Positions 1 through 27,608 of a stretch of DNA of 30,582 nucleotides are shown here, in pieces. The notes under the pieces are model-generated. The model was not told the DNA's origin. It made no database searches and saw only the letters and a program-made list of their open reading frames with translations. The stretch is from positions 1 through 30,582 of the IMG/VR virus record IMGVR_UViG_3300027608_002012. One strand, given 5' to 3'. How positions within the stretch are numbered: the first letter of the stretch is position 1; each line of letters begins with the position of its first letter. Both the position numbers and the translations under genes were made by a program. The stretch is from a virus.

Positions 1-1245
1 CAAGGTGTGGTAGAAAGTGTCAATGACTATCTATGGCACGGGTCTAGGTATAGAAATGAGGTACTAGTACCGCGTCAGGCTAATGATACCGGTGGTAAAG
101 AAGAAAGTAATAAAAATGCTATATATGCTACTCCTAGTGCAAAAGTTGCTATAGCAATGGGGCTAACTACTCCTGGATCAGATACCGGAATGTTTCCAAA
201 CGATCCACAAATGGTACTATTCAAAGGCGGTATTAGAAAAGGTGAAATGGTTTACTTGCACAAGGTACCTAAAGATTTATTCATAAAACACAACAGCAGA
301 GAATGGTATAGTAAACCCGATGTAAAAGAAATTACACCTATAGAAGTAGTAACAGTTCCTGTAGACAAATGGTTAAGTTTGATTAGAACTGCTACCCCTA
401 AAGATTTAGAATTACAGAAAAAAAACATGAAGAAGCAAGGTGTAGCGGAAGGCTTAGATGATAATAGAGTTAGTTTCAAGGTACAAAAAGGTAAAAACAA
501 ATTTGCAACTACTTTAAGTGTTGGTGGCGACCCAGTAGGAGTATACCAATATGATGCTGATACAGGTCGTAGCATAGCCGAGATTTATCCAGAATTCAAA
601 GGCAAAGGATTAGGTAAATTATTGGTTTTACATGCTATCTATACCGCGGCTAATTTGGGATTAGATTTCCAAGAAGATGAATCAAGAACCTCAGAGTATG
701 ATAATGTATTAGATAGTTTGAGTAGTAACGGTTATATTGTAGATGACGATGGATATTGGTATGTAACCGGTCAAGGTGAACAATATCTACAACAATCATT
801 AAAACAAGGTGTGGCGGAAGGTGATGACAAATTAAAAGATCCAATAGCAAATGCAATATTAGATTTCTATCAACATGCCGGACATATTAGCAAAGACCCA
901 ATTGATAACTATGTTGGTACTGCAAAAGAATTGCTAAGTCAGGTCAGTGATCCTACAGTCAAATCAAAGATACTAGATATTTTCAAACAAGCAAAACAAA
1001 GCCCATATGTTCAAGGTGGAGTTGTTACAACTATTGGTGCATTACTTGCCGGTGGAGTATTAAGTTCAGCACAGAAAATGGGATTGAGTCCAGCGCAAAC
1101 TAACTTAGTGTTACAAGCGATACTAAATACAGTTATACCTACTGTGGTGTCCAGGATCAATGGAAAGAGTTGGAGTGACACAGTTAAGTACACACTAGCA
1201 AGTGCAGGCATTGGTACTGGCATTGCTGGTATGATGGAGGAATAA
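1..1245 (+). CDS. Multidomain phage protein, 5' end outside window (ART-like + GNAT-like + hydrophobic tail)
   Basis: The frame is open from base 1, so the gene starts upstream. Numbering from the GTG at 7: residues 8-120 (YLWHGS, then NAIYAT and AKVAIAM) resemble an ADP-ribosyltransferase-type fold. Residues 150-262 contain PEFKGKGLGKLLVLHA, a GNAT acetyltransferase motif A. Residues 275-412 end in a Gly/Ala-rich hydrophobic stretch that could be membrane-active. The domains are separated by the linker QGVAEG (residues 144-149 and 267-272), and a variant QGVVES is encoded at bases 1-18. The stop overlaps the glutaredoxin start (TAATG). Domain assignments are by motif only and the function is unknown. 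The linkers may be protease sites or recombination seams (inference). Confidence 0.75.
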   Translation, partial: QGVVESVNDYLWHGSRYRNEVLVPRQANDTGGKEESNKNAIYATPSAKVAIAMGLTTPGSDTGMFPNDPQMVLFKGGIRKGEMVYLHKVPKDLFIKHNSREWYSKPDVKEITPIEVVTVPVDKWLSLIRTATPKDLELQKKNMKKQGVAEGLDDNRVSFKVQKGKNKFATTLSVGGDPVGVYQYDADTGRSIAEIYPEFKGKGLGKLLVLHAIYTAANLGLDFQEDESRTSEYDNVLDSLSSNGYIVDDDGYWYVTGQGEQYLQQSLKQGVAEGDDKLKDPIANAILDFYQHAGHISKDPIDNYVGTAKELLSQVSDPTVKSKILDIFKQAKQSPYVQGGVVTTIGALLAGGVLSSAQKMGLSPAQTNLVLQAILNTVIPTVVSRINGKSWSDTVKYTLASAGIGTGIAGMMEE

Positions 1246-1273
1246 TGGCATATTCAGAAAAAGTAATTGACCA
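1245..1273 (+). repeat. 29-bp direct repeat, copy 1 (grxD 5' end)
   Basis: A perfect 29-bp match to 1572-1600, beginning with ATGGCATATTCAGAAAAAG. The copies lie 327 bp apart and both follow a GGAG ribosome-binding site. Recombination between them would remove grxD. Confidence 0.97.
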
Positions 1274-1568
1274 AATAGTAAAAGAACACAATGTTGTGTT
1301 GTTTATGAAGGGGACCGCACAATTTCCCATGTGTGGATTTTCGGGCAAAGCTATACAACTGCTGAATGAATGCGATTCAGACTTTGATGTATTCACTGTA
1401 AATGTGCTTGATGATAATGACATTCGACAAAGTATCAAAGAATACAGTAATTGGCCGACCATTCCTCAATTGTATGTCAATGGTGAGTTCATCGGCGGAT
1501 CTGACATCTTGATCGAAATGCACGAATCAGGTGAATTACAACAATTATTAAAAAACAAGGAGTCATAA
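1245..1568 (+). CDS. grxD: Monothiol glutaredoxin (Grx4/GrxD type, CGFS)
   Basis: A 107-aa protein with the CGFS active site (C30), the lysine of MKG (K22), the cis-proline segment WPTIPQ and GG-S-D, all glutathione/[2Fe-2S]-binding features of CGFS glutaredoxins. This family holds a bridging [2Fe-2S] cluster and passes it between scaffold and carrier proteins, which fits iscU, iscA and erpA just downstream. GGAGG precedes ATG by 4 nt, and the start overlaps the upstream stop. Oddity: the first nine residues (MAYSEKVID) match the canonical IscU N-terminus, not Grx4, and their DNA is identical to the iscU relic at 1572. Confidence 0.96.
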   Translation: MAYSEKVIDQIVKEHNVVLFMKGTAQFPMCGFSGKAIQLLNECDSDFDVFTVNVLDDNDIRQSIKEYSNWPTIPQLYVNGEFIGGSDILIEMHESGELQQLLKNKES

Positions 1569-1571
1569 TTT

Positions 1572-1622
1572 ATGGCATATTCAGAAAAAGTAATTGACCA
1601 CTACGCAGTTATGATAGAATAA
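1572..1622 (+). pseudogene. Relic of the iscU 5' end (MAYSEKVIDHY), interrupted
   Basis: This 16-codon frame reads MAYSEKVIDHY and then AVMIE-stop. The first 11 residues equal the standard proteobacterial IscU start. It has its own GGAG (1559-1562) inside the end of grxD. Homology stops at 1604, ahead of the HNH gene. The intact iscU at 2250 has a differently coded start (MYSAKVLDHY). Most likely the HNH gene was inserted after codon 11 of the original iscU and the downstream part acquired a new start. The first 29 nt are copy 2 of the repeat shared with grxD. Confidence 0.8.
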
Positions 1623-1648
1623 TAATGCACACAACCGGGTGCACCTAG

Positions 1649-1657
1649 ATAAATACT
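1649..1657 (+). promoter_or_regulatory. Late-promoter-like motif ATAAATACT
   Basis: Matches the T4 late -10 element (TATAAATA). It lies 3 nt before the ATG of the HNH gene, which has no Shine-Dalgarno, so the mRNA would start at or near the start codon. Confidence 0.55.
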
Positions 1658-1660
1658 TGT

Positions 1661-2257
1661 ATGAAAAACAAATATGGTCTAAGTAAGGTGTGCTTTTTTT
1701 GTGAATCTAGTTTTATAACTAAACCTAGATTTATAGATTACTGTTCACAAAAATGTAAAAATCCTCTTAACAGGGGAGAATATGATCCCTGGAATAAAGG
1801 TATCAAACTTACAGATGAACAAAAAGCAAAACAAAATACAGACGGGCTCAAAAAAGGATGGGGATGGAACAAGGGCGGAACTAATGAAGCGGCACGCCAG
1901 CGTATGCTAGTCAATAATCCAAATAAAGATGGAAGGTTAAACAATCTTAGACCAAAAAATCCAATTACAGAACCCCTTAAAATATATCGTAGTAAGGTTA
2001 GGTACCATACATATAGAACTCTTAAAGAAATGAGAGCAAACGGTGAGTGGGTTCCAAAAACTGGTAAGTATAAAGACAGTTGGCAAATTGACCATATTAT
2101 TCCACACAAACAAGGTTTTGAATTAAGAATAGATCCTTCAGTACTTGGTGGAAAAAAGAATATACAATTTATTAAAGGCGAAGAAAACAGAAAAAAATGG
2201 GATAGTTATCAACCCATTGAAATAGTAGAGTCTATTACAGGAGGTAATTATGTATAG
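1661..2257 (+). CDS. HNH homing endonuclease
   Basis: A 198-aa protein with an N-terminal zinc-ribbon-like CFFC...CSQKC segment (residues 11-32), a WNKG motif typical of phage homing-endonuclease DNA-binding modules, and a C-terminal HNH core (IDHIIPHK, then NIQFI and ENRKKWD). No ribosome-binding site is seen; the late motif sits 3 nt before ATG. Its 3' end overlaps the iscU start by 8 nt and supplies the AGGAGG that iscU uses. It separates the iscU relic (1572) from the active iscU, as expected of a mobile endonuclease gene that has invaded iscU. The cleavage target is probably the iscU 5' region (inference). Confidence 0.9.
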   Translation: MKNKYGLSKVCFFCESSFITKPRFIDYCSQKCKNPLNRGEYDPWNKGIKLTDEQKAKQNTDGLKKGWGWNKGGTNEAARQRMLVNNPNKDGRLNNLRPKNPITEPLKIYRSKVRYHTYRTLKEMRANGEWVPKTGKYKDSWQIDHIIPHKQGFELRIDPSVLGGKKNIQFIKGEENRKKWDSYQPIEIVESITGGNYV

Positions 2258-2633
2258 TGCAAAAGTGTTAGATCATTATGAGAACCCTAGGAACGCAGGA
2301 AGTTTTTCCAAAGATGAAGAAAATATAGGTACGGGATTAGTAGGAGCCCCGGCGTGTGGTGACCTAATGAAACTACAAATAAGAGTAGAGAATGGCATTA
2401 TTACAGATGCACGTTTTAAAACGTATGGATGTGGATCGGCAATTGCAAGTAGTTCTCTAGTCACAGAGTGGGTTAAAGGCAAGACATTAGACGAGGCAGC
2501 AACTATTAAAAATTCAGAAATTGCTGAGGAACTTGCATTACCCCCAGTTAAGATACATTGTAGTATCTTAGCAGAAGATGCTATCAAAGCCGCAGTAGAA
2601 GATTATAAAAAGAAACATGATATCATTATCTGA
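2250..2633 (+). CDS. iscU: Fe-S cluster assembly scaffold IscU
   Basis: A 127-aa full-length IscU. It has the three cluster cysteines C36 (APACGD, with D38), C61 (YGCGSA) and C104 (KIHCS, with H103), plus LPPVK at 97-101, the site bound by the chaperone HscA. In the family, IscU accepts sulfur from the desulfurase IscS and builds [2Fe-2S] clusters. No iscS or hscA/B is in the window, so host partners are implied. A strong AGGAGG lies before the ATG. The end overlaps iscA by 17 nt. The N-terminus (MYSAKVLDHY) is coded quite differently from the relic at 1572. Confidence 0.97.
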   Translation: MYSAKVLDHYENPRNAGSFSKDEENIGTGLVGAPACGDLMKLQIRVENGIITDARFKTYGCGSAIASSSLVTEWVKGKTLDEAATIKNSEIAEELALPPVKIHCSILAEDAIKAAVEDYKKKHDIII

Positions 2634-2940
2634 CAAAGCAAAAACAAAAATAGAAACTCTATTAAAGAGTTCTCAACATGTTGGGATTCGTATAGGGGTG
2701 AAAACAACTGGTTGTAGTGGATTAGCATATGTATTAGAATATGTAAAAGAATATGTTAGTGATCCTACTACTATCAATTACGCTCAACCTAACTTTTGTG
2801 TATTAGTAGATAAAAAGCATAATGTATATTTAGAAGGTCTTACGATGGATTATGTCCGTAATGGACTAAATGAGGGGTTTGAGTTTAGCAACCCGAATGA
2901 ACGTGACCGCTGTGGATGCGGAGAAAGTTTTAGAGTATGA
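2617..2940 (+). CDS. iscA: A-type Fe-S carrier IscA
   Basis: A 107-aa protein matching IscA along its whole length. It has the three metal/cluster cysteines C33 (TGCSG), C99 and C101 (CGCGES), and the IscA-type stretches GLAYVLE and [13 protein letters not shown]-type carriers take clusters from IscU/Grx and deliver them to apo-targets. Translation is coupled: it starts inside iscU and ends with ATGA overlap into erpA. The family assignment is very safe; the exact targets are unknown. Confidence 0.96.
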
Positions 2941-3260
2941 TAACAATTACAGAATCAGCAAGTATCAAAATAGCAGATATTATTGCGGAAGAAAACAACC
3001 CTGACTTAAAGTTACGTATGTTTGTCCAGGGCGGGGGATGCTCAGGATTCAGCTATGGATTTACGTTAGAGGAGATAAAAAATGAAGATGACTTTGAATT
3101 TGAAGCTGGTGCCACAAGTGTCCTGGTCGATGCAATGTCGGCTCAATATCTTCAAGGGGCTGAGGTTGATTACGTAGAAGACTTAATGGGGGCAGAATTC
3201 AAGATAAAGAACCCCACAGCTACTAGTACTTGCGGATGCGGGAGTTCCTTTTCGGTTTAA
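2937..3260 (+). CDS. erpA: A-type Fe-S carrier ErpA
   Basis: A 107-aa second A-type carrier with C35 (GGGCSGF), C99 and C101 (CGCGSSFS). NPDLKLR, YGFT and [10 protein letters not shown] are ErpA-like rather than IscA-like. Having IscA and ErpA paralogues side by side suggests that the phage encodes both a general carrier and a [4Fe-4S] deliverer. It starts within the iscA stop (ATGA). The next late motif begins 2 nt after its stop. Confidence 0.95.
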
Positions 3261-15943: not shown

Positions 15944-16380
15944 CTTGTTGTTGTAAGGATATCCAAAGCCTGTTGTAATACTTTTGACTGACGATGTTGT
16001 ACATCCAACTCCCATGGTAGGTTGGTGTATTCTTCATGTGTCATTTCGTCAGGGGGTTTGCTTGAATAGGGTATTCCTTGCCAATAGCACAATCCACTAG
16101 GTTTGATTTTCAATAGACCAAGATACTTTTGACTAACATGTATCAGTTCATGTACAAGAATTTTTAGTTGTGATTCTAGTGATAGGTTGATGTTCAATCC
16201 AATACGATTGACTCGGTTGATATCAATACCACCATAGACATTCTCCTCTAAGGGGCACAAGCATACCTCTACAGTGTCCGGCAACTCTATGATTTGAGAT
16301 ACTGCAATGGCTAACGAGGTCAATAAAGCCTCGTTATCTTTTTCATAGTTATTATTTTTATAGTAAAACTTAACTTCCAT
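15940..16380 (-). CDS. Zinc metallopeptidase-like protein (HExxH)
   Basis: A 146-aa protein with HELIH at 77-81 and a later E124 in PWELDVQ that could be the third ligand, as in SprT/gluzincin-type domains found in phages. There is no signal peptide, so it acts in the cytoplasm. It directly follows the secreted D,D-peptidase gene, overlapping by 1 nt. Substrate unknown. Confidence 0.8.
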   Translation of the reverse strand: MEVKFYYKNNNYEKDNEALLTSLAIAVSQIIELPDTVEVCLCPLEENVYGGIDINRVNRIGLNINLSLESQLKILVHELIHVSQKYLGLLKIKPSGLCYWQGIPYSSKPPDEMTHEEYTNLPWELDVQHRQSKVLQQALDILTTTS

Positions 16381-17186
16381 TATGCATTATGAATTTTGTC
16401 CATTGCCTTTTTAACTATCTTCTCACGTTCTTGTTTAGTTCTAGCACCTAATACTGTGATATTATATAATTGGTTATTTGTACTTACAAGCATTGTGATA
16501 CAGAATCCTGCCGCATTTGTAAACCCTGTCTTTATCGTAACTATTCCTTCTTTTCCAAAATAATGACTAGTTGAATTACTAATAATTGATTTGTTCCTTG
16601 GTTGTTTGATTCGCTTTTTAGATTTTTTACTCTTTTCAGATTTATTAGGTACCGCTGATTTAGTAACCACTCTTTGTGTTTGTGCGGCTTGTTGTACAAT
16701 AGGAAAATTACTAACTGCTTTAACTAGCATTACAATATCATTAACAGTACTGTAATTCATAGCACTCAATCCAGTGGGTTCGACAAATCCGGTATGCATC
16801 ATTCCAAGTTCTTTTGAATGAGTATTCATTTGACGAATAAAATGTGGTTGTCCACCGGGATAATTTTGCGATAAAGTAACTGCGGCTAAATTATCACTGC
16901 TTACTAATGACATGTTAACTAGTTCTTGTCTTGTCAGAATCATGCCCTTCCTTAGTTTAGTGTGATTGATTTTATTACTTATGACAGTTAGTTTTTCGTT
17001 AAGGTCTTGATTTGATTTCATGACCGTGTATATAGTCATTAGTTTGCTTATACTAGCAATACTAACTTCTTTTTCACTGAGAGAGCCTGAGATAACTCTA
17101 TCATGTGTTACGTTGTACACTACAGTGTTTGCCTCAGCAAATGAGAATAGTGGCAGAAATAATAATATGATTAAAATGTTTCGCAT
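16380..17186 (-). CDS. Secreted S11-family D-alanyl-D-alanine peptidase (PBP5/PBP7-like)
   Basis: A 268-aa protein with a signal peptide (MRNILIILLFLPLFSFAEA, cleavage near 19) and all three serine-peptidase motifs of penicillin-binding family S11: S45-I-S-K48, S97-D-N99 and K219-T-G221. Family members trim or cut peptidoglycan stem peptides in the periplasm. A Lys-rich insert lies at 183-199. Unlike lysins, it would be exported by the host Sec system, so it may remodel the wall during infection or block superinfection (inference). No Shine-Dalgarno is seen; the start is close to the -10 at 17196. Confidence 0.92.
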   Translation of the reverse strand: MRNILIILLFLPLFSFAEANTVVYNVTHDRVISGSLSEKEVSIASISKLMTIYTVMKSNQDLNEKLTVISNKINHTKLRKGMILTRQELVNMSLVSSDNLAAVTLSQNYPGGQPHFIRQMNTHSKELGMMHTGFVEPTGLSAMNYSTVNDIVMLVKAVSNFPIVQQAAQTQRVVTKSAVPNKSEKSKKSKKRIKQPRNKSIISNSTSHYFGKEGIVTIKTGFTNAAGFCITMLVSTNNQLYNITVLGARTKQEREKIVKKAMDKIHNA

Positions 17187-17248: not shown

Positions 17249-17276
17249 AAAAAAATAGACCCCGAAGGGTCTATTT
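17249..17276 (-). terminator. Rho-independent terminator with UUCG loop
   Basis: On the minus strand: a 10-bp stem AAATAGACCC/GGGTCTATTT closed by a UUCG loop and followed by a T-run. It ends the phosphatase/metallophosphoesterase operon and overlaps the last codon region. Confidence 0.95.
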
Positions 17277-17877
17277 ACATTGTAGGACCATTTCCTGATT
17301 TGAATCCAACTTCTCCGCCTTCATCTTTTATGCGTTTGATAACATCTTCAAACAATATAGGTTTAAAGTCTGTTTGTTCTACGCATACGCAATGATATCG
17401 GACATCAACTTCATCACTGTACAACATAGTGCCGGTCTTAACATCATATCCACGGGGCTTTTTAACACGATTAGTGTGCAAGTGACCATGAATGTTGACG
17501 CCAAAACGACCCAAACTTTCTTCATGTACTGGGATATGACTCAATATCATACCGTTCATAACATGATAGGCACGTAATTCACGGAAGTGTTCACGATATT
17601 CCTCATCACGGAAAATGTCATGGTTGCCACGAATCAATACCTTATCACCGTTCAAACGATGCAAGGTCTTCATTGCCTTACGATTGATAACAACATCACC
17701 CAAGTGATAAACTTTATCGTTAGGCTTGACAGTCTCGTTCCACATCTTGACCATAGCCTCATCCATTTCATCTGGATCAGTCCATGGGCGAATCTTCGTC
17801 ACTCCGTCACTTTCCGTGAATCTACACACTCCGGCATGACCAAAATGTGTGTCACTGACTAAAAATACTGATGGCAT
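17275..17877 (-). CDS. Calcineurin-like metallophosphoesterase
   Basis: A 200-aa protein with the whole metal-binding set: D9-T-H11 (SDTHFGH), HLGD61, GN85H86D, SH114, and NIH130GH132LH. It resembles stand-alone phage phosphoesterases active on phosphomonoesters, cyclic nucleotides or RNA ends; the substrate cannot be read from sequence. TAAGGAG lies before the ATG. Last gene of the operon from 18987, with its own terminator. Confidence 0.94.
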   Translation of the reverse strand: MPSVFLVSDTHFGHAGVCRFTESDGVTKIRPWTDPDEMDEAMVKMWNETVKPNDKVYHLGDVVINRKAMKTLHRLNGDKVLIRGNHDIFRDEEYREHFRELRAYHVMNGMILSHIPVHEESLGRFGVNIHGHLHTNRVKKPRGYDVKTGTMLYSDEVDVRYHCVCVEQTDFKPILFEDVIKRIKDEGGEVGFKSGNGPTM

Positions 17878-18111: not shown

Positions 18112-18471
18112 TTATGCTAACATCCATGATTCATCTTGGTCTTTATATTCTATTGATTCATTACCATCATATTCTGCTATTCTAAACATTCTACCTTCTT
18201 TAACCCATTCAACTTCTAAATCTTTTAAGCCACCTAGATATACATCAGGGTATTTCAATACCATAAAAGTTTCAAGTTCTTCAAATTTTCCTGCTGTTAC
18301 CATGTGAACTATTGCTGGATCAAAAACTAGTTCAGGATATTGACGATTCCAACTGTACCATCCAGCACCAAATCCAGGTGAGTACAACACCGCAACTGCA
18401 CCGGCAACAACTACTTTACCTGTGTAAAGTTCGTCTGCTACTTCAATCTGGTCTCTTAACATAACTTCCAT
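18112..18471 (-). CDS. Conserved phage hypothetical, 119 aa
   Basis: VVVAGAVAVLYSPGFGAGWY, then SWN and LVFDPAIV, followed by YPDVYLGGLKDLEVEWV and FRIAEYDGNESIE, a very conserved phage family. Function unknown. It overlaps the phosphatase stop by 1 nt. Confidence 0.82.
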   Translation of the reverse strand: MEVMLRDQIEVADELYTGKVVVAGAVAVLYSPGFGAGWYSWNRQYPELVFDPAIVHMVTAGKFEELETFMVLKYPDVYLGGLKDLEVEWVKEGRMFRIAEYDGNESIEYKDQDESWMLA

Positions 18472-18965
18472 TATACATCACCTTTATATTTTTTAGGTAT
18501 AATCAATCCACTGTCTAATGTCACGCCATTGATAGTATGAGGTTCATTCTCATCATACGTCAATCCTAACACACTCATCATTTTATGTTTCACTAACAAG
18601 TTTGGACTACGATAATCTTCTGTATCATCAAAGCCCATCATTATCCCAACCTCTGTTACTGCACCTGAACGACATACACCTGCGATACAATGCACAATTA
18701 CATTACTACGATTAAGCAATGCTTGCTTTAGTATGATAACCAAACTCTTGGCTTGTTCATCGGTTATTTTCATTTCAGGTTCAATACATTCATCCTCTTT
18801 TTCTAAATCTAAGAATTCAAATTGATGAACATTATTGAATTTGTATTTGGGTTTAGGGAATTCCATACCACAATCAACAATCTGAATCAACACATTGTTG
18901 ATACCTGGATCATAGTGTTTACCTTTTACGATATCACTCAGTGCTACATTTTGAATCCACGGCAT
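18471..18965 (-). CDS. Protein tyrosine / dual-specificity phosphatase
   Basis: A 164-aa protein; start at ATG 18965 because AAGGAG lies 8 nt upstream. The signature VHCIAGVCRSG gives C93 and R99 of the P-loop. A general-acid aspartate may lie in the DLEKEDE stretch. It could dephosphorylate host or phage proteins, or RNA 5' ends as some family members do. First gene after promoter 18987-19015. Confidence 0.92.
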   Translation of the reverse strand: MPWIQNVALSDIVKGKHYDPGINNVLIQIVDCGMEFPKPKYKFNNVHQFEFLDLEKEDECIEPEMKITDEQAKSLVIILKQALLNRSNVIVHCIAGVCRSGAVTEVGIMMGFDDTEDYRSPNLLVKHKMMSVLGLTYDENEPHTINGVTLDSGLIIPKKYKGDV

Positions 18966-18986
18966 GTTTTTCTCCTTCATTAGAGT

Positions 18987-19015
18987 ATTATATATGATTT
19001 GGGGATTATTGTCAA
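18987..19015 (-). promoter_or_regulatory. Early promoter
   Basis: TTGACA (19010-19015), 17 nt, TATAAT (18987-18992). Drives the four-gene operon that ends at terminator 17249-17276. Confidence 0.93.
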
Positions 19016-19025
19016 GCGCAGAAAG

Positions 19026-19417
19026 TAACACCCTAGGTGCGCTAAAAAGTATTAATATATAAAGAACATGGAGTTGTTAGTAAAAACTCATCCGTATATG
19101 CGGTGGTTTATCTAGGGTGTTTATATAAGCACACAATATCTCTTTCGCTTAGTAGAGCCTGTCTTATCGGGCAGGGTACTGACACAGTATACTTATATAA
19201 AATGTCTAGCTACTCACACCACATGAGCCCTAGACTGGTCAGTTACTACGTCCATAACATTTATTCTTCTGGATAGGTGTTATACCTCACCCTAGATTGT
19301 TTTCGGTATCCCATGTAAGCGGGACCGTAAGGTCAAGTTCTAGTGTACCCCCTCTCCTATCGTTCAAGGGACGCTCTTTTATAACGTAAAAGAGTAAACC
19401 GGGTATTACTATTTAGC
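19026..19417. ncRNA. Candidate structured noncoding RNA region next to the Ro-like gene
   Basis: About 390 nt without a gene on either strand. Pairing seen: AACACCCTAG (19027-19036) with CTAGGGTGTT (19112-19121); CCG/CGG at 19092-19103; GTCTAG/CTAGAC (19204-19209/19230-19235) enclosing CTCA/TGAG; GACC-GTAA-GGTC (19323-19334); CTCTTTTA/TAAAAGAG (19374-19394); ATTTAGC-TTAC-GCTAAAT (19411-19428) across the Ro stop. Strand and ends are unknown. Its position beside a Ro60-family gene suggests a Y-RNA-like partner (inference). Confidence 0.45.
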
Positions 19418-21198: not shown

Positions 21199-21333
21199 TT
21201 AAATTACTTCAAAATCTTCTTTGCCTACACCGCATTCGGGGCAGACATAAGTGTCTGGAAGTTCATTCCATGCACCTTCTAGTTCTTCATCGTGTACGTG
21301 ACCGCATACGATACATACATGTTCTTCACTCAT
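21199..21333 (-). CDS. Rubredoxin
   Basis: A 44-aa protein: VCIVCGHVHDEE, then AWNELPDTYVCPECGVGKED. The two CxxC pairs (C7/C10 and C31/C34) bind one iron, and the rubredoxin signature LPD-x-x-x-CPxCG is intact, though the protein is shorter than the usual 52 aa. ATGA overlap with the rubrerythrin gene. It is the natural electron donor to rubrerythrin, here as a separate protein rather than a fused C-terminal domain. Confidence 0.94.
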   Translation of the reverse strand: MSEEHVCIVCGHVHDEELEGAWNELPDTYVCPECGVGKEDFEVI

Positions 21334-21797
21334 TCTAAACTCTCCAAAACTTGTTGATAGCCTTCAGCATGTCGTTTTTCAACTTTAGCCAATGCCGCAA
21401 ATCGTTTCTCTGCTTTTGCTAATACAGACTTAAACTGTTCAGCATGTGCAGAACTTTCAACAATCTGGGTTCTAAACTCGTTTAATGCAATTTGGTTATT
21501 TTCTGCCTTAGCATCTTCTTCAAATCCTGGATACATTGTAGTGAATTCATAGGTTTCACCTTCAATTGCTTTCATCAAGCATTCTTTAGTTGTTGGCTTA
21601 CCAATCAACAATTCTAAGTGACCCCACGCATGTAAAACTTCTTGAACAGCGGTGTGTTCAAAATGTCGTGCTACTTCTTCAAAGCCTTCTTCACGTGCAA
21701 TTTTTGCAAAGTAGCGATACTTGATATGAGCCATTGACTCACCGGCTAATGCCGACTCAAGGTTTTTTAGTGTGTTTGATATTTTATCAAATGGCAT
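21330..21797 (-). CDS. Rubrerythrin diiron protein (no rubredoxin domain)
   Basis: A 155-aa protein; start at ATG 21797 (AAAAGGAA upstream). The four-helix diiron ligands are present: E20, E53 with H56 (EVLH), E81xxE84 (ETYE), E114 with H118 (ESSAH). Rubrerythrins reduce hydrogen peroxide in the cytoplasm using electrons from rubredoxin. The C-terminal rubredoxin domain is missing and encoded by the next, overlapping gene. Long leader from 22013-22041. Protection of the infected cell or of phage Fe-S proteins is likely (inference). Confidence 0.95.
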   Translation of the reverse strand: MPFDKISNTLKNLESALAGESMAHIKYRYFAKIAREEGFEEVARHFEHTAVQEVLHAWGHLELLIGKPTTKECLMKAIEGETYEFTTMYPGFEEDAKAENNQIALNEFRTQIVESSAHAEQFKSVLAKAEKRFAALAKVEKRHAEGYQQVLESLE

Positions 21798-21824
21798 ATT
21801 TTTTTTCCTTTTAAAAATGATAGC

Positions 21825-21988
21825 AGGATCGTTGTTGACTGCTTGTTTAGCCAGGGCCATCACACCTGGTTCGTTAGTCTTGCTTCAATAATACCCTTCA
21901 ACGCTCGGTGTTTTTAAGCACTCTGCTCCAGTTACTACCGTAGTGTCTAACAGTCCATAGTTAATGAGTTTGTTGCTGTGCCGATCCT
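21825..21988 (-). promoter_or_regulatory. Long structured leader of the rubrerythrin transcript
   Basis: About 210 nt separate the promoter and ATG. AGGATCG (from 21988 leftward) near the 5' end pairs with CGATCCT (21825-21831) near the gene. The same layout, with a swapped GC/CG pair, occurs before the Ro-like gene, and GGAT-N5-CAGCAA is present (21972-21987). An in-frame extension (MMALAKQAV...) crosses this leader but has no ribosome-binding site. Confidence 0.55.
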
Positions 21989-22012: not shown

Positions 22013-22041
22013 ATTATATATGAGTTTGTCTTTACCGTCAA
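22013..22041 (-). promoter_or_regulatory. Promoter of the rubrerythrin-rubredoxin operon
   Basis: TTGACG (22036-22041), 17 nt, TATAAT (22013-22018). Confidence 0.85.
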
Positions 22042-22062: not shown

Positions 22063-22150
22063 TGGCGGAAGCGGTGAGATTCGAACTCACGGAACCTTTC
22101 GATTCTCTAGTTTTCAAGACTAGCGCCATAGGCCACTCGACCACGCTTCC
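22063..22150 (-). tRNA. tRNA-Ser(UGA)
   Basis: Full cloverleaf with a long variable arm, loop CTTGAAA (anticodon TGA), GTTCGAATC T-loop, discriminator G and encoded CCA. Confidence 0.97.
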
Positions 22151-22159
22151 TTTTAATGA

Positions 22160-22372
22160 TTAACGCTCAACCTTTTTGATTCGTTTTAGATATTCACGAT
22201 TGATTAAACCTTCTTCAATCTCACGTAATGCGGTTACTGCATGACCATTTTTTGTTTTTACTTTCGGGCGATGACCTGCCGTTAATTCTCTAACACGTTG
22301 ACTTGCTATAAGAATTAAATCGTATCTATTGCCTACAGCATTCACTGCGGCTTCACTTGTTTGTCTTGGCAT
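22160..22372 (-). CDS. rpoZ: RNA polymerase omega subunit (RpoZ homologue)
   Basis: A 70-aa protein; start at ATG 22372 with AAGGACGATA upstream. The core omega elements align: AAVNAVGNRYDLILIASQRV (8-27) and ALREIEEGLI (48-57), the omega signature that folds around the beta-prime C-terminus. Bacterial omega is about 90 aa, so the phage form lacks the variable tail. It sits between tRNA-Ser and tRNA-Gly. It may replace or compete with host omega during infection (inference). Confidence 0.93.
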   Translation of the reverse strand: MPRQTSEAAVNAVGNRYDLILIASQRVRELTAGHRPKVKTKNGHAVTALREIEEGLINREYLKRIKKVER

Positions 22373-22390: not shown

Positions 22391-22465
22391 TGGAGCAGGA
22401 TATCGGGTTCGAACCGATGACATTTTCGTTGGCAACGAAACATTCTACCACTGAATTAATCCTGC
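22391..22465 (-). tRNA. tRNA-Gly(GCC)
   Basis: Acceptor GCAGGAT/ATCCTGC, anticodon loop TTGCCAA, GGTTCGAACC T-arm, encoded CCA. Confidence 0.97.
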
Positions 22466-22472
22466 ATTTTTT

Positions 22473-22547
22473 TGGTACATCCTGAGAGATTCGAACTCCC
22501 GACCTTCTCCGTGTAAAGGAGACATTCTACCACTGAAATAAGGATGC
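22473..22547 (-). tRNA. tRNA-Val(UAC)
   Basis: Acceptor GCATCCT/AGGATGT (first pair G-U), loop TTTACAC, encoded CCA. Confidence 0.96.
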
Positions 22548-22552
22548 ATATA

Positions 22553-22750
22553 TCATTTCTTTAATGTTCCGCCAGTACACGAAGCATCTTCAAAAAATTG
22601 TTGTTGAACTTTTTTCTGATAGTCCTCCATGACTGGATCCTTCTCATTAATATTTTCTTCTTTTAAATCACGCTGAAAAATAGCATCCCAACGAGTATCA
22701 TATTCTTGTTGAGATATGCTTATTGATCGTGGTGTACTACCTTTAGTCAT
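22553..22750 (-). CDS. Conserved small phage protein, 65 aa
   Basis: N-terminus MTKGSTPRSISISQQEYDTR with WDAIF, then helical and acidic; the pattern KGSxPRxxS...WDxIF is recurrent in phages. AAGGAAAA lies before the ATG. Unknown function. Confidence 0.8.
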   Translation of the reverse strand: MTKGSTPRSISISQQEYDTRWDAIFQRDLKEENINEKDPVMEDYQKKVQQQFFEDASCTGGTLKK

Positions 22751-22752
22751 AA

Positions 22753-22884
22753 TTATTTTCCTTGTCCTCTGTATGCTTTGAATGTCTTACGACGGCATTT
22801 GTTCATACTACTTGTTTTAGCTTTACCACCTTGACATGTTTTTTTAGTAATCACATGACCTTTTGTATTACGACCTTGTGCCAT
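22753..22884 (-). CDS. Small basic phage protein, 43 aa
   Basis: Reads MAQGRNTKGHVITKKTCQGG, then KAKTSSMNKCRRKTFKAYRG. Strongly basic, probably nucleic-acid- or ribosome-associated (inference). It starts in the stop of the PPIase gene (TAATG) with AAGGATTG upstream. Confidence 0.75.
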   Translation of the reverse strand: MAQGRNTKGHVITKKTCQGGKAKTSSMNKCRRKTFKAYRGQGK

Positions 22885-23156
22885 TATGCAATCCTTTGAA
22901 TCAAGTGATAGCCAAACTGTGTTTGAACAGGTTGACTTAAGCCGCCTACGTCTAATCCGTACGTAGCATCTTCAAAGGGCTTAACCATTTGACCACGACC
23001 GAATTGACCTAAGTCTCCGCCGTTCTGCCCGCTTGGACACTTGCTGTGCGTCTTTGCCAATGCACTAAAATCTTCACCATTGTTTTTAACTTTGATGTAT
23101 AGATCCATTGCATCACTAAGTGATTCTACTAAAATATGTTTTGCTCTTACTTGCAT
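22884..23156 (-). CDS. Parvulin-type peptidyl-prolyl isomerase
   Basis: A 90-aa single rotamase domain. KHILVES (6-12), CPSGQNGGDLGQFGRGQMVK (40-59), PFEDATYGL and TQFGYHLIQ match the PpiC/Par10 core from end to end. It has no signal peptide, so it is a cytoplasmic folding helper. Substrate unknown, perhaps virion proteins. The ribosome-binding site is weak (AGAAAG). Confidence 0.95.
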   Translation of the reverse strand: MQVRAKHILVESLSDAMDLYIKVKNNGEDFSALAKTHSKCPSGQNGGDLGQFGRGQMVKPFEDATYGLDVGGLSQPVQTQFGYHLIQRIA

Positions 23157-23179
23157 TAGTTTCTTTCTATAAAATTGGT

Positions 23180-23310
23180 AGAGAACATTTTTGAGGTATC
23201 TCTATTGAAGCAGATCACTGCTCACCTGTTACATCCCTCTTAGTACTGTTACCTGCCCTAAGGATTAGCTAGCTACCTTAGTGACTCATACTGGATAATG
23301 TAACTTATCC
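23180..23310 (-). ncRNA. Candidate RNA with four consecutive hairpins
   Basis: Between tRNA-Pro and the PPIase gene: AGAGA/TCTCT (23180-23184/23199-23203), AGCAG-ATCA-CTGCT (23209-23222), CTAAGG/CCTTAG (23258-23263/23276-23281), GGATAA/TTATCC (23293-23298/23305-23310). No open frame. Could be a leader of the PPIase gene or an independent RNA. Confidence 0.45.
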
Positions 23311-23318
23311 GCTGTTCT

Positions 23319-23395
23319 TGGTCGGAGTACAAGGATTCGAACCTTGGACCCCCTGGTCCCAAACCAGGTGCGCTACCAGACTGCGCCACACTCCG
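23319..23395 (-). tRNA. tRNA-Pro(UGG)
   Basis: Loop TTTGGGA, T-arm GGTTCGAATCC, discriminator A, encoded CCA. Its 5' end abuts the stop codon of 23396-23635. Confidence 0.97.
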
Positions 23396-23635
23396 TTATT
23401 TTTTCTTTCTTAAAATCATTCCAACATACGTGCCAAAAAATGCACCGATGCCTGCTGGAACTAATAACCAATAGTTAGTTGTATAGTTGATAACTGCTAC
23501 ACAAGCGGTTATGAATACAACTGTTGCCCACATACTGGCTTTTGTTACTTGGTCATCTTGTACAGCTTTCAAGTAGTAAGTATAAAAGATATCAGTAAAA
23601 AATACAGCAAAAAAGGTTATAATATATTCTAGCAT
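23396..23635 (-). CDS. Membrane protein, 79 aa
   Basis: Three membrane helices. FFTDIFYTYYLKAVQDDQVT, then ASMWATVVFITACVAVINYT and WLLVPAGIGAFFGTYVGM, a known pattern in phage and bacterial small membrane proteins. It fills exactly the space between two tRNA genes. No clear ribosome-binding site. Role unknown. Confidence 0.8.
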   Translation of the reverse strand: MLEYIITFFAVFFTDIFYTYYLKAVQDDQVTKASMWATVVFITACVAVINYTTNYWLLVPAGIGAFFGTYVGMILRKKK

Positions 23636-23648
23636 TTAAATGATTAGT

Positions 23649-23723
23649 TGGTTGCAGGGGACGGAATCGCACCGCCGATCTTTAGCTTATGAGACTAACG
23701 AGATACTACTTCTCCACCCCGCG
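23649..23723 (-). tRNA. Initiator-like tRNA-Met(CAU)
   Basis: Loop CTCATAA. Acceptor CGCGGGG/CCCTGCA leaves C1 opposite A72, the unpaired end that marks bacterial initiator tRNA; A11-U24 is also initiator-like. The anticodon stem, however, lacks the three G-C pairs. The T-loop reads TGCGATT instead of TTC. CCA is encoded. Confidence 0.78.
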
Positions 23724-23744
23724 ATATATTTATTTGTGTTTACG

Positions 23745-23819
23745 TGGTGCTTGATAAAAGATTTGAACTTTTGACCTCTTGCATGTCGAGCAAGCGTTCT
23801 TCCACTGAACTAATCAAGC
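23745..23819 (-). tRNA. tRNA-Val(GAC), with C at position 33
   Basis: Acceptor GCTTGAT/ATCAAGC, stem CTTGC/GCAAG, loop TCGACAT. The anticodon would be GAC, but the normally invariant U33 is C. Encoded CCA. Confidence 0.82.
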
Positions 23820-23820
23820 A

Positions 23821-24009
23821 TTATTCGTTGTCAGTACCTTCGACTTTTTCAAAACGCAATTTGATTCCTTGACTTAAATCAAATCCATTTAACAAACCAG
23901 AGTCTCTGTCGGCTTGTAATTCAGGCCAGATGAATGCAGGATCATACCTATCACCTAGTACTCTTACTGTTTTGTATAGTTTGTTGTTGATGTAAATTTT
24001 TAACTTCAT
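23821..24009 (-). CDS. Hypothetical protein, 62 aa
   Basis: Starts MKLKIYINNKLYKTVRVLGD, then an acidic part ending GTDNE. Probably beta-rich. AAGGAACAT lies before the ATG. Its stop lies 1 nt from the tRNA-Val 5' end. No family recognised. Confidence 0.75.
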   Translation of the reverse strand: MKLKIYINNKLYKTVRVLGDRYDPAFIWPELQADRDSGLLNGFDLSQGIKLRFEKVEGTDNE

Positions 24010-24043
24010 AGTATGTTCCTTGACATACTATATTTATGATTCT

Positions 24044-24119
24044 TGGTGGAGGATACCAGGATCGAACTGGTCACCTACTGCTTGCAAAGCAGCCGCTCTC
24101 CCAAATGAGCTAATCCCCC
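24044..24119 (-). tRNA. tRNA-Ala(UGC)
   Basis: Loop TTTGCAA, acceptor GGGGGAT/ATCCTCC with one G-U pair, encoded CCA. Confidence 0.97.
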
Positions 24120-24129
24120 ATTAAAACTT

Positions 24130-24212
24130 TGGTGCCCCAACTCGGACTCGAACCGAGATGCTCTCGCACTGGCTTCTAAGACCAGCGTGTCTACCAATTC
24201 CACCATCGGGGC
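24130..24212 (-). tRNA. tRNA-Leu(UAG)
   Basis: Long variable arm, loop CTTAGAA, perfect GCCCCGA-type acceptor, encoded CCA. Confidence 0.97.
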
Positions 24213-24221
24213 AAAAATTAT

Positions 24222-24306
24222 TGGTGCGAGTACCCGGAGTCGAACCGGGACGCCCGAAAGCGGCAGATTTTAAGTCTGCTACGTCTACCTATTCCGTCAT
24301 ACTCGC
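24222..24306 (-). tRNA. tRNA-Leu(UAA)
   Basis: Long variable arm, loop CTTAAAA, GCGAGTA/TACTCGC acceptor, encoded CCA. First tRNA after promoter 24319-24347. Confidence 0.97.
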
Positions 24307-24318
24307 AAAACAAAGTAT

Positions 24319-24347
24319 ATTATATACTATGTATCATTTATTGTCAA
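24319..24347 (-). promoter_or_regulatory. Early promoter for the tRNA array
   Basis: TTGACA (24342-24347), 17 nt, TATAAT (24319-24324); spacer starts ATAAAT like the family. Transcription would begin about 7 nt before tRNA-Leu(UAA). Confidence 0.93.
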
Positions 24348-24372
24348 CTTATTTATTGACCATTATCAATCT

Positions 24373-24446
24373 TGGAGCGGGGTAGGGGATTCGAACCCCT
24401 CTAGCTAGCTTGGAAGGCTAGAACACAACCACTATGCCAACCCCGC
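24373..24446 (-). tRNA. tRNA-Gly(UCC)
   Basis: Loop CTTCCAA, acceptor GCGGGGT/ACCCCGC, encoded CCA. Lies upstream of promoter 24319, so read from the radical SAM operon or its own signal. Confidence 0.96.
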
Positions 24447-24458: not shown

Positions 24459-24623
24459 ATGCATACGTATGACGCTATCACTGATTCAGGATTACACATC
24501 CATCTTTCAATGAGTAACGATTCCATCTGTTACATCATCGTGCATAATATTTACTCTCACAAAACTAGAATGAAATACTTTACTGATACTGAATCAGCTA
24601 TTTACTTCATACATTCATTATAA
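24459..24623 (+). CDS. Small plus-strand protein, 54 aa, probably leaderless
   Basis: Reads MHTYDAITDSGLHIHLSMSN, then DSICYIIVHNIYSHKTRMKY and a short tail, His- and Tyr-rich. It is one of only two plus-strand genes seen in the right half. It has no Shine-Dalgarno but a late motif 3 nt upstream. The 3' end overlaps the end of the radical SAM gene by 6 nt on the opposite strand. No family recognised. Confidence 0.55.
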   Translation: MHTYDAITDSGLHIHLSMSNDSICYIIVHNIYSHKTRMKYFTDTESAIYFIHSL

Positions 24624-25586
24624 TTTCCTTTTACTTATAATTATATCAGTAGAGCAATGACAATCCTTCTGTACGCATATTTCGGGTTCAGTAGGCCATT
24701 CTATTTGTTCTGGATAATTTATATTACCTATTATTCTAGTAGGTGTTCCTTGTTTACAATTGGCACGTTGTATGTCACCATCCCAATGTACAAACAAACT
24801 TTCTAATCCTATATCACACTGCCACCCATAAAAGTTATTAAGACCTGTGTTAATTATATCAATCTCCGGAACATTATATTCATTAGAATTGTCATCCCAG
24901 TAATACCGAGCTGACATTGCTACTCCCTTTTTTTGAATCAGTCTTGGATTCAGTAACCAATACATAAATCCTGAATTTTTTTGGGGATGATCTAATATCC
25001 ATTGATTTTGCTCAGGTGTATAATTTCTACCTAATGAATTACCAACACCCCAGTCTTGCAGTTGTACTGCCTCTACACCTACTCCAGTTGTTTTTGAATC
25101 AAAAGCATGATATGTTTCTACACACTTTTCCCAATATCTATTATCCATCATAACACGTACACTAGTGTGTGTATGTTTGATGGTTGCAAATACTTTCTCT
25201 TTGAAAGCAGGATCCTCAAAACTAGGATGAAAGCTAAAACACATACCATTGACATATTGAGCTATGTCCTCATAATATCTAGGTGTTCTTACCCCATTTG
25301 TAGTTATAGAAATAGTATGGCCGGCATTATAAAATATCTTAATCAATTCAGGTAGATGTGGACTCAATGTAGGCTCACCGCCGGCAATACTGAGATGTAT
25401 TTTTTCATGTCTACCTATCAATTCATAAACAAATCTTTTAGCATTTTCCCAATCATAGTGGTGATTTTTTCCATTATGCAATCCTTCAGGACAGTAACTA
25501 CATGCATTGGTACATATGTTATTGATTATCCAAGTTAATTGCATGACTTTAGGAGTTTGTGTAATAGCGATTAACTTGCGTGTCAT
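24618..25586 (-). CDS. Radical SAM enzyme
   Basis: A 322-aa protein; start at ATG 25586 with AAAGGATA upstream. C25-x3-C29-x2-C32 (CTNACSYC) binds the [4Fe-4S]-SAM cluster; GGEPTLSP is the SAM-binding GGE motif and SITTNG the next strand. C-terminal cysteines (WQCDIG, ANCKQG, ICVQKDCHC) suggest a SPASM/twitch-like auxiliary cluster, which is common in peptide-modifying enzymes. Last gene of a four-gene overlapping operon with a 2OG oxygenase. Substrate unknown. Its clusters could be served by the phage Fe-S genes. Confidence 0.93.
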   Translation of the reverse strand: MTRKLIAITQTPKVMQLTWIINNICTNACSYCPEGLHNGKNHHYDWENAKRFVYELIGRHEKIHLSIAGGEPTLSPHLPELIKIFYNAGHTISITTNGVRTPRYYEDIAQYVNGMCFSFHPSFEDPAFKEKVFATIKHTHTSVRVMMDNRYWEKCVETYHAFDSKTTGVGVEAVQLQDWGVGNSLGRNYTPEQNQWILDHPQKNSGFMYWLLNPRLIQKKGVAMSARYYWDDNSNEYNVPEIDIINTGLNNFYGWQCDIGLESLFVHWDGDIQRANCKQGTPTRIIGNINYPEQIEWPTEPEICVQKDCHCSTDIIISKRKL

Positions 25587-26938
25587 AGTATATCCTTTAC
25601 AGCTCCACATCGTTCTCTATTCCAAACATCATCAAGTGTTAATTGAATCTCTGGATTAATAATGTAAAGTTGCGCTAATATTTTCTGTTGTTGTGCGTGA
25701 CAAAAATCATGTCCAAATATCATTTGTCCTGCATCTGTGCTGAATATATTACTTAAATTCATCCAAACCTTATCATATTCTTGAATGATATCCAATAGAG
25801 GAATAGCGTCTTTGTAAAGATCAACTTGTAAGAATTTTACATGTCGTTGTTTAAAATCTTGCCAATAATGTATAAAGTTTTCTTCACTTCCAAAATGTCG
25901 AAATATTTCATTCATTCCATTTTGAAAACCCTGATCCTCTATATATTCTGAACTATGTCGTCCTATCCATGTAAAATGATTACGTTCAGGGAAGGCTCTA
26001 ATACAAGACAATATATCATTGTTAGTCCAAGTATACATGTGTTGATACCAACGTAATGCAATAGGATTAAAATCATACACCACTATCATTGCATCAGTAG
26101 TTAATCTTTGTGGGTGTTTGAACATATCAAACAACTTAAAACCACTCGCAGTATTAATAACTAAATCAAATATTCCCTTACTACGAATGTTCATTTCTTC
26201 TGAATTGAATAACCATATTTGATCTTTAACTGCAATGCTATCTTCAATCCATTTATTTTGATTCCAATTTTGTTCTAAGAATGGAGTCAATGTTTCAATA
26301 CTTTGTAAGAATTTGTCTGTGTTATCATCCGGATAAGTATAAAATTTACTCAGTCTTATTGTTTCTGATAATGCAATCACAGGCCAGTTGTTTTGCATCA
26401 ATGCTAAGGTTAATTTCCACCCTGGACTTAACTGCATCTGTTCTGAAAATATTCTAGTAGGTCTTACCCATAATGGAGTATAATCGTGATGAAAATTTTC
26501 TTCACTACGTTCAATCACCGGTAACAATTTAGGACCTCTTTCCCAATCTCCAAATTCAGGTCTACCAACTTCTACCCAGGCTTTAATATTTACAATAAAG
26601 AATTGATAGTGTAGCTCTAACCAGTGATTTGGATGACATAGAGGATGACCTGCAACACCAAATGTATTTTCAGAAATAAACTGATCAAGGTCATTGACAA
26701 AATTAAAATTACGTATTTGACAACCTGCGGCAACAACTACACAATAATCAAATTGTTCAATCGATGCTTGTTCTAATATTTCACGTATCTCATCCTTGCA
26801 AATAATTCTCAAGGGAGATGGTTGAACATTACTAAGTCTTTCAAGATAAAAAAGAGTTGCCCCTTTAGCCCTAAGATACATCTTAGTATTATTAATTTGT
26901 TTACGTTGGTTATAAACCCCATATATAATTCTATGCAT
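25583..26938 (-). CDS. Large unknown protein, 451 aa (possible GT-A-like and methyltransferase-like halves)
   Basis: Start at ATG 26938 (MHRIIYGVYNQRKQ). Residues 60-165 (FDYCVVVAAGCQI; then AGHPLCHPNHWLELHYQFFI, VNIKAWVEVGRPEFG) weakly recall nucleotide-sugar transferases. Residues 265-320 (GIFDLVINTASGFKLFDMF, MIVVYDFNPIALRWY) weakly recall a Rossmann methyltransferase. Neither assignment is proven. It overlaps the oxygenase gene by 8 nt and the radical SAM gene by 4 nt, so it acts in the same process. Confidence 0.72.
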   Translation of the reverse strand: MHRIIYGVYNQRKQINNTKMYLRAKGATLFYLERLSNVQPSPLRIICKDEIREILEQASIEQFDYCVVVAAGCQIRNFNFVNDLDQFISENTFGVAGHPLCHPNHWLELHYQFFIVNIKAWVEVGRPEFGDWERGPKLLPVIERSEENFHHDYTPLWVRPTRIFSEQMQLSPGWKLTLALMQNNWPVIALSETIRLSKFYTYPDDNTDKFLQSIETLTPFLEQNWNQNKWIEDSIAVKDQIWLFNSEEMNIRSKGIFDLVINTASGFKLFDMFKHPQRLTTDAMIVVYDFNPIALRWYQHMYTWTNNDILSCIRAFPERNHFTWIGRHSSEYIEDQGFQNGMNEIFRHFGSEENFIHYWQDFKQRHVKFLQVDLYKDAIPLLDIIQEYDKVWMNLSNIFSTDAGQMIFGHDFCHAQQQKILAQLYIINPEIQLTLDDVWNRERCGAVKDIL

Positions 26939-27608
26939 GGTTAAACCTTTCAATTGCCTGACGCTTTAATCTTTCTTCACCTGATCCATGTACAATGAAA
27001 TGGTATCGATGTTCATCTGATTGATTCCAGACCATGTGTTCATTTCCTATATCTAGCATAAAGCCATGACCTTGTTTAAAAGGTACATGACCCCATTTAC
27101 GAAAATAAAACTCACAATTGTCAGGATTATTAATAGCGATGTTCAATGGTCCAAACATTCTTCCAACGCCATCATTATGTGGCATTATATACCCACTCGC
27201 ATGTAATTTCATAATGCGTACACGCTCATATGTTTGATAACCCAGAGACTTAAGAAATTCAGTGCATGTAGGGAAGTACTCACATGCGTCTGTCCAATGA
27301 TAATTAGCTTCTTCTACAGTTTTATAACCATATTGTTCATAATTTTCTGTAGCTGTTGGATTAATTCCATGCAATGTAATTGCCGCCCAACCCTCATGAT
27401 TGTAACTATACTGGCGATCCTTTTGTCTATGCCCCACAAACATGTGGTCATTGTCAATACATTCTTTATGCATTTTTTTAAAATCTGCCGAGAATGTTAT
27501 AGGAAACCACGGCCAATCTGACCTGTCTAAACTAGTCGGCGCAGGTATTGTAGGTTGCCATTGGTTTGTTAAACTTTCTTTAATGAATTCGTTTAAAATT
27601 TCTTTCAT
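26931..27608 (-). CDS. 2-oxoglutarate/Fe(II) oxygenase (aspartyl/prolyl hydroxylase-like)
   Basis: A 225-aa protein. The facial triad H144-x-D146 (MPHNDG) and H191 (NEHMVWN), with R201 after it as 2OG anchor, fit the aspartyl/asparaginyl beta-hydroxylase-like cupin family. Such enzymes hydroxylate protein or peptide side chains with O2. Overlaps on both sides place it in the radical SAM operon. Confidence 0.87.
   Translation of the reverse strand: MKEILNEFIKESLTNQWQPTIPAPTSLDRSDWPWFPITFSADFKKMHKECIDNDHMFVGHRQKDRQYSYNHEGWAAITLHGINPTATENYEQYGYKTVEEANYHWTDACEYFPTCTEFLKSLGYQTYERVRIMKLHASGYIMPHNDGVGRMFGPLNIAINNPDNCEFYFRKWGHVPFKQGHGFMLDIGNEHMVWNQSDEHRYHFIVHGSGEERLKRQAIERFNHA

Follow-up and report, generated by a model that had tools for sequence, protein, structure and literature searches.

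A viral homologue of the RNA polymerase omega subunit encoded within tRNA arrays of large phages

The DNA analysed here, referred to as the window, is the whole 30,582-base virus record IMGVR_UViG_3300027608_002012. Its minus strand carries an open reading frame (translation: MPRQTSEAAVNAVGNRYDLILIASQRVRELTAGHRPKVKTKNGHAVTALREIEEGLINREYLKRIKKVER) for a homologue of the omega subunit of bacterial RNA polymerase (RNAP), preceded by a Shine-Dalgarno-like AAGGA 5′ of the ATG and enclosed by tRNA genes, 18 of which were called in the window with ARAGORN. The positions of the omega gene, its neighbours, the putative promoters and some more distant genes are collected in Table 1.

Table 1. Genes and putative promoters in the window.
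Feature	Position	Strand	Remark
Viral rpoZ homologue (RNAP omega subunit), 70 aa	22160..22372	-	ATG at 22372
tRNA-Gly(gcc)	22391..22465	-	18 nt upstream of omega; ARAGORN
tRNA-Ser(tga)	22063..22150	-	10 nt downstream of omega; ARAGORN
Remaining local tRNA array	22473..24446	-	Val, Pro, Met, Val, Ala, Leu, Leu, Gly; small ORFs interspersed
PpiC-type prolyl isomerase	22884..23156	-	recurrent omega neighbour, 6/27 clusters
Calcineurin-like metallophosphoesterase	17275..17877	-	homologue within 6 kb of omega in 21/27 clusters
Dual-specificity/tyrosine phosphatase-like protein	18471..19031	-	HCxAGVCRSG motif; below Pfam's cut-off; homologue within 6 kb of omega in 14/27 clusters
Sigma-70 consensus promoter, putative	24319..24347	-	TTGACA-17-TATAAT, perfect consensus match (12/12)
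Sigma-70-like promoter (11/12), putative	22013..22041	-	past tRNA-Ser, reads into the next gene block
Rubredoxin and rubrerythrin genes, adjacent	21199-21863	-	directly past the omega/tRNA-Ser segment
DUF2828/DUF7788 protein, 475 aa	19418-20845	-	appears TROVE/Ro60-like
D-alanyl-D-alanine carboxypeptidase (Peptidase_S11)	16380-17186	-	
Radical SAM and Asp/Asn beta-hydroxylase-like proteins	24618-27608	-	between two tRNA blocks
Fe-S cluster gene block	1245-3260	+	glutaredoxin, IscU/NifU_N-type scaffold, two IscA-type (Fe-S_biosyn) proteins

The assignment of the 70-aa protein was obtained from profile and structure searches. It matches PF01192 (Pfam) with E = 1.1e-12 and 48.2 bits (cut-off 26), and the NCBIfam rpoZ equivalog TIGR00690 with 40.2 bits (cut-off 23.6); with a second omega model, NF001579, it scores below the cut-off. 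Omega chains in the PDB were matched at 5e-12. A single-chain AF2 model was of modest confidence (pLDDT 78.7), and a Foldseek search with it returned E. coli omega chains as the top PDB matches (TM 0.80). The omega chain of a gp45-dependent activation complex (7d7d) was also seen in this search. Pairwise dN/dS between the window omega and its relatives lies at 0.03-0.17 in most pairs with usable dS and at 0.30 for one more distant pair, some other pairs being saturated. These values are far below 1, which means that the gene is maintained as a protein under purifying selection. The open reading frame is a real omega gene, and the proposal of an earlier note that a phage-encoded omega lies between two tRNA genes was borne out by PF01192, TIGR00690, Foldseek and ARAGORN.

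Comparison of alignment columns from 91 viral and 117 bacterial sequences revealed the conserved omega core motifs in the window protein. The ALREIEEGLI stretch singled out in the earlier note is indeed present, but it is ordinary omega core and the enterobacterial omegas have the same. Similarly, the lack of a C-terminal tail is true only in comparison with the roughly 90-aa omegas of the E. coli type and is uninformative, because tailless omegas of 66-67 aa are found in a Comamonadaceae genome and in genomes like it, and the DnaK of a near relative of the window points to such a host. Truncation of the tail as a phage trait was dismissed on the same bacterial omegas; the viral ones are 66-92 aa long. 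The near relative (L008, 171 kb) encodes an omega 94% identical to that of the window, and its DnaK shares 72-76% identity with most tested short-omega genomes, including the Comamonadaceae genome, as against 64-67% with the tested gammaproteobacteria. This hints at a betaproteobacterial host, a transferred gene being weak evidence of the host. In the same record (L166-L174), DnaK is accompanied by ClpX, ClpS-like, Hsp20-like and MazG-like proteins, all except DnaK recognized by reading of the sequence only.

The spread of such an omega among phages, which the earlier note had proposed to survey, turned out to be considerable. A first scan of IMG/VR gave 85 omega loci; two further scans enlarged the set to 169, which encode 91 distinct proteins with identities to the window omega between 99% and about 48%. 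The best bacterial identity, among 398 Pseudomonadota genomes and a genome collection, was only 44-58%. In a quick maximum-likelihood tree (unrooted, 75 columns, with a bacterial side of Pseudomonadota only), one branch with SH-aLRT 98 separates 92 viral rows, the window included, from 64 bacterial ones. A single origin of the viral omegas is likely, though not proven. Several positions distinguish the 91 viral from the 117 bacterial sequences: S6 is found in 91% of the viral omegas where 96% of the bacterial ones have V6, and E29 occurs in 100% of the viral and 1% of the bacterial sequences, 88% of the latter having Q29. T47 and Y61 are each present in 93% of the viral omegas. The family is absent from PHROGs, and no convincing relative was found among the sequenced phage isolates in INPHARED, one short faecal record being left aside; it is therefore easy to overlook.

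Residence in a tRNA array, as described for this one locus in the earlier note, proved to be general across the family. A tRNA gene lies within 1.5 kb in 79 of the 91 distinct viral omegas and within 0.5 kb in 66 of them, whereas only 4-8% of the sequence is as close as 1.5 kb to a tRNA in a baseline of four large phage genomes. The majority of members are near a tRNA in 21 of 27 clusters formed at 75% identity, although such clusters are not independent. Most omegas of the nearest clade likewise adjoin tRNA-Gly(gcc), but the flanking tRNA pairs vary between clades, which suggests that the location of omega is kept while its neighbours change. This residence may be partly inherited and not independently selected each time. 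All tRNAs within 3 kb of the viral omegas (747/747) are on the omega strand, a co-orientation which is partly trivial in an early region transcribed from one strand.

The perfect sigma-70 consensus site of the window immediately precedes tRNA-Leu(taa) and is oriented toward omega; in L008 a 12/12 site is likewise found ahead of tRNA-Leu(taa). Counting matches of 11/12 or better over the 5 kb upstream of each of the 91 viral omegas gave 130 on the omega strand, compared with 8 on the opposite strand and 8 in simple shuffles. An early region transcribed in one direction would be expected to show such a strand bias, which alone does not single out omega. The −35 box begins 40-59 bp ahead of the omega start codon in 13 loci, which belong to 6 clusters and include two omegas without an adjoining tRNA (L050 and L053). 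The T4-type late promoter TATAAATA was found 0 times in the window against 3.6 expected. Early expression of omega by the host RNAP is the natural inference from the near-consensus sigma-70 promoters.

The polymerase, capsid and sigma genes of the omega-bearing phages were also searched for. The beta′ subunit (PF00623) was found in 0 of 20 omega-bearing virus records, some of which are fragments, with 14 of 14 controls positive; a multisubunit RNAP of their own, as in phiKZ-like phages, was rejected on this basis, though a very divergent beta′ could escape detection. A major capsid protein of the T4 gp23 type was identified in 10 of 20 records, 9 of which score over the cut-off. Of 25 records, 11 have a late sigma of the gp55 type, among them all eight that are larger than 220 kb. 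Neither gp23 nor gp55 was detected in the 171 kb of L008, a record that is most likely incomplete; T4-type machinery is accordingly documented in relatives of the window virus but not in that virus itself. A neck-like protein of L008 is 30-34% identical to its counterparts in jumbo myoviruses, among them Atu_ph07 and PA5oct. For the large freshwater phages of a paper on moraphages, whose hosts were predicted to be Bacteroidota, no homologues of RNAP were reported (PMC12619734).

No description of a phage-encoded omega was found in a search of published papers, few of them behind subscription. With bacterial RpoZ (PF01192, TIGR00690) the viral proteins have in common the fold and the core NR[YF]DLxLxA and ALREIEEG, and in part the M-x-R-x-T N-terminus; they differ in being virus-encoded, in lying in tRNA arrays, in S6 and E29, and in an identity of at most about 58% to the sampled bacterial omegas. 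Two UniProt entries from uncultured Caudovirales phages, A0A6J5T227 and A0A6J7WH19, named ‘DNA-directed RNA polymerase’, have an omega-like fold (TM 0.87 for A0A6J5T227); these are database annotations, and no analysis of their context or function was found. The viral omega resembles T4 gp55 in being a small phage protein that would redirect the host RNAP. Further T4 host-takeover factors that bind RNAP are gp33, AsiA and RpbA. Unlike the viral omega, the T4 factors lack homology to a core subunit. The multisubunit RNAPs of phiKZ-like jumbo phages are likewise phage-encoded parts of a cellular-type RNAP, yet they form separate enzymes. Giant eukaryotic viruses have omega/Rpb6 homologues of the same superfamily (weak matches), which belong to a complete viral RNAP, whereas the partner of the viral omega would be the host enzyme.

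Known phage strategies towards the host RNAP are to bind, modify or replace it; to supply a single ordinary core subunit would be a different one. Taken together, we consider it quite probable, and the best explanation of the data, that the gene encodes a functional omega of a virus-specific lineage of large T4-related phages, which is expressed early and joins and retunes the host RNAP. Host sigma-70 RNAP would transcribe omega early together with the tRNAs; the product would bind host beta′ via the conserved omega core, take the place of the host omega within the core enzyme or supplement it, and stabilize and retune RNAP for the phage programme before a gp55-type late sigma takes over. What we infer is the incorporation into host RNAP and any action on the enzyme; the gene family itself is unusual, well supported and found in a new setting. 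In bacteria, deletion of the host omega is usually tolerated (PMC9638019), and so the benefit of an omega to a phage is not obvious. RNAP distribution over prophages is altered in E. coli without omega (PMC5811629). A broader idea, which we hold tentatively and at less than even weight, is that large phages using the host RNAP evolved an interchangeable core subunit, an early and virus-specific omega retained in tRNA arrays, which replaces its counterpart in the host RNAP and reshapes the response to ppGpp or the affinity for a phage sigma.

The alternatives differ in what the viral omega would add to the polymerase. It might simply add to the dose of ordinary omega, aiding assembly or stability of RNAP while early transcription is fast, and bring no new regulation. 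The conserved core and the largely retained ppGpp motif are what such a gene would be expected to show, and L008 encodes DnaK together with ClpX, ClpS and Hsp20-like proteins (the last three assigned from their sequences); the long separate evolution with fixed virus-specific residues, on the other hand, suggests more than a copy of a host protein, and we regard this reading as unlikely, though to be taken seriously.

A second alternative concerns the N-terminus. In E. coli RNAP, the phosphates of ppGpp at site 1 are held by omega residues 2-5 together with beta′ R417 and K615, and the effect of ppGpp at site 2 (DksA) is larger than that at site 1 (PMC7676912). The viral omega could alter sensing at site 1 such that the stringent response affects RNAP in infected cells less, or in a different way. 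A2, R3 and T5 are invariant in the 117 bacterial omegas and variable in the viral ones, 35 of 91 of which deviate from M[APSG]R.[TSC][ST], several having replaced or extended N-termini. The window omega begins with MPRQT, in which A2 is replaced by P and V4 by Q but R3 and T5 are kept, and across the 91 members of the family R3 is retained in 83% and position 5 is T or S in 88%. Moreover, the beta′ half of site 1 and the DksA site remain those of the host. The ‘stringent-response-blind’ polymerase envisaged in the earlier note gains no support from the window omega, in which M-x-R-x-T is largely kept, and RNAP containing this protein would most likely still sense ppGpp at site 1. For those other lineages with off-motif N-termini, altered sensing is a fair hypothesis; as the general explanation it seems improbable to us.

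Equally improbable is that the viral omega acts as a docking platform, offering a viral surface on the host RNAP to phage activators or a phage sigma. Such a role could account for the near-invariance of the virus-specific residues S6, E29, T47 and Y61 and would suit the many omega-bearing phages with a gp55-type sigma; a precedent is found in GafA, a phage-derived activator of a gene transfer agent (GTA), which acts through the host omega (PMC9638019). However, the same residues may instead serve beta′ contact or stability. In itself, the family offers a ready set to probe omega, the least understood RNAP subunit, since there are at least 91 viral omegas and a segment invariant in the sampled bacteria is variable in them.

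That omega is a functionless passenger or host contamination is very improbable, for although many small accessory ORFs occur in tRNA arrays, dN/dS is far below 1, there are 91 distinct viral members with one viral/bacterial split, and no sampled bacterial relative exceeds about 58% identity. Recent capture from a host was rejected on the same split and identity.

Matches among INPHARED records were also rejected as relatives from phage isolates, as they look like misfiled or contaminating bacterial rpoZ, and some of the rpoZ-bearing records are bacterial contigs named as phages. Two ‘Campylobacter phage’ records match at an identity and span equal to those of Salmonella rpoZ. MG065691, MG065686, CAKLQH020000003, CAKLQF020000004, AFYI01000003 and AGRM01000003, all filed as phages, seem to carry bacterial chromosomal rpoZ, which is likely due to contamination or misfiling.
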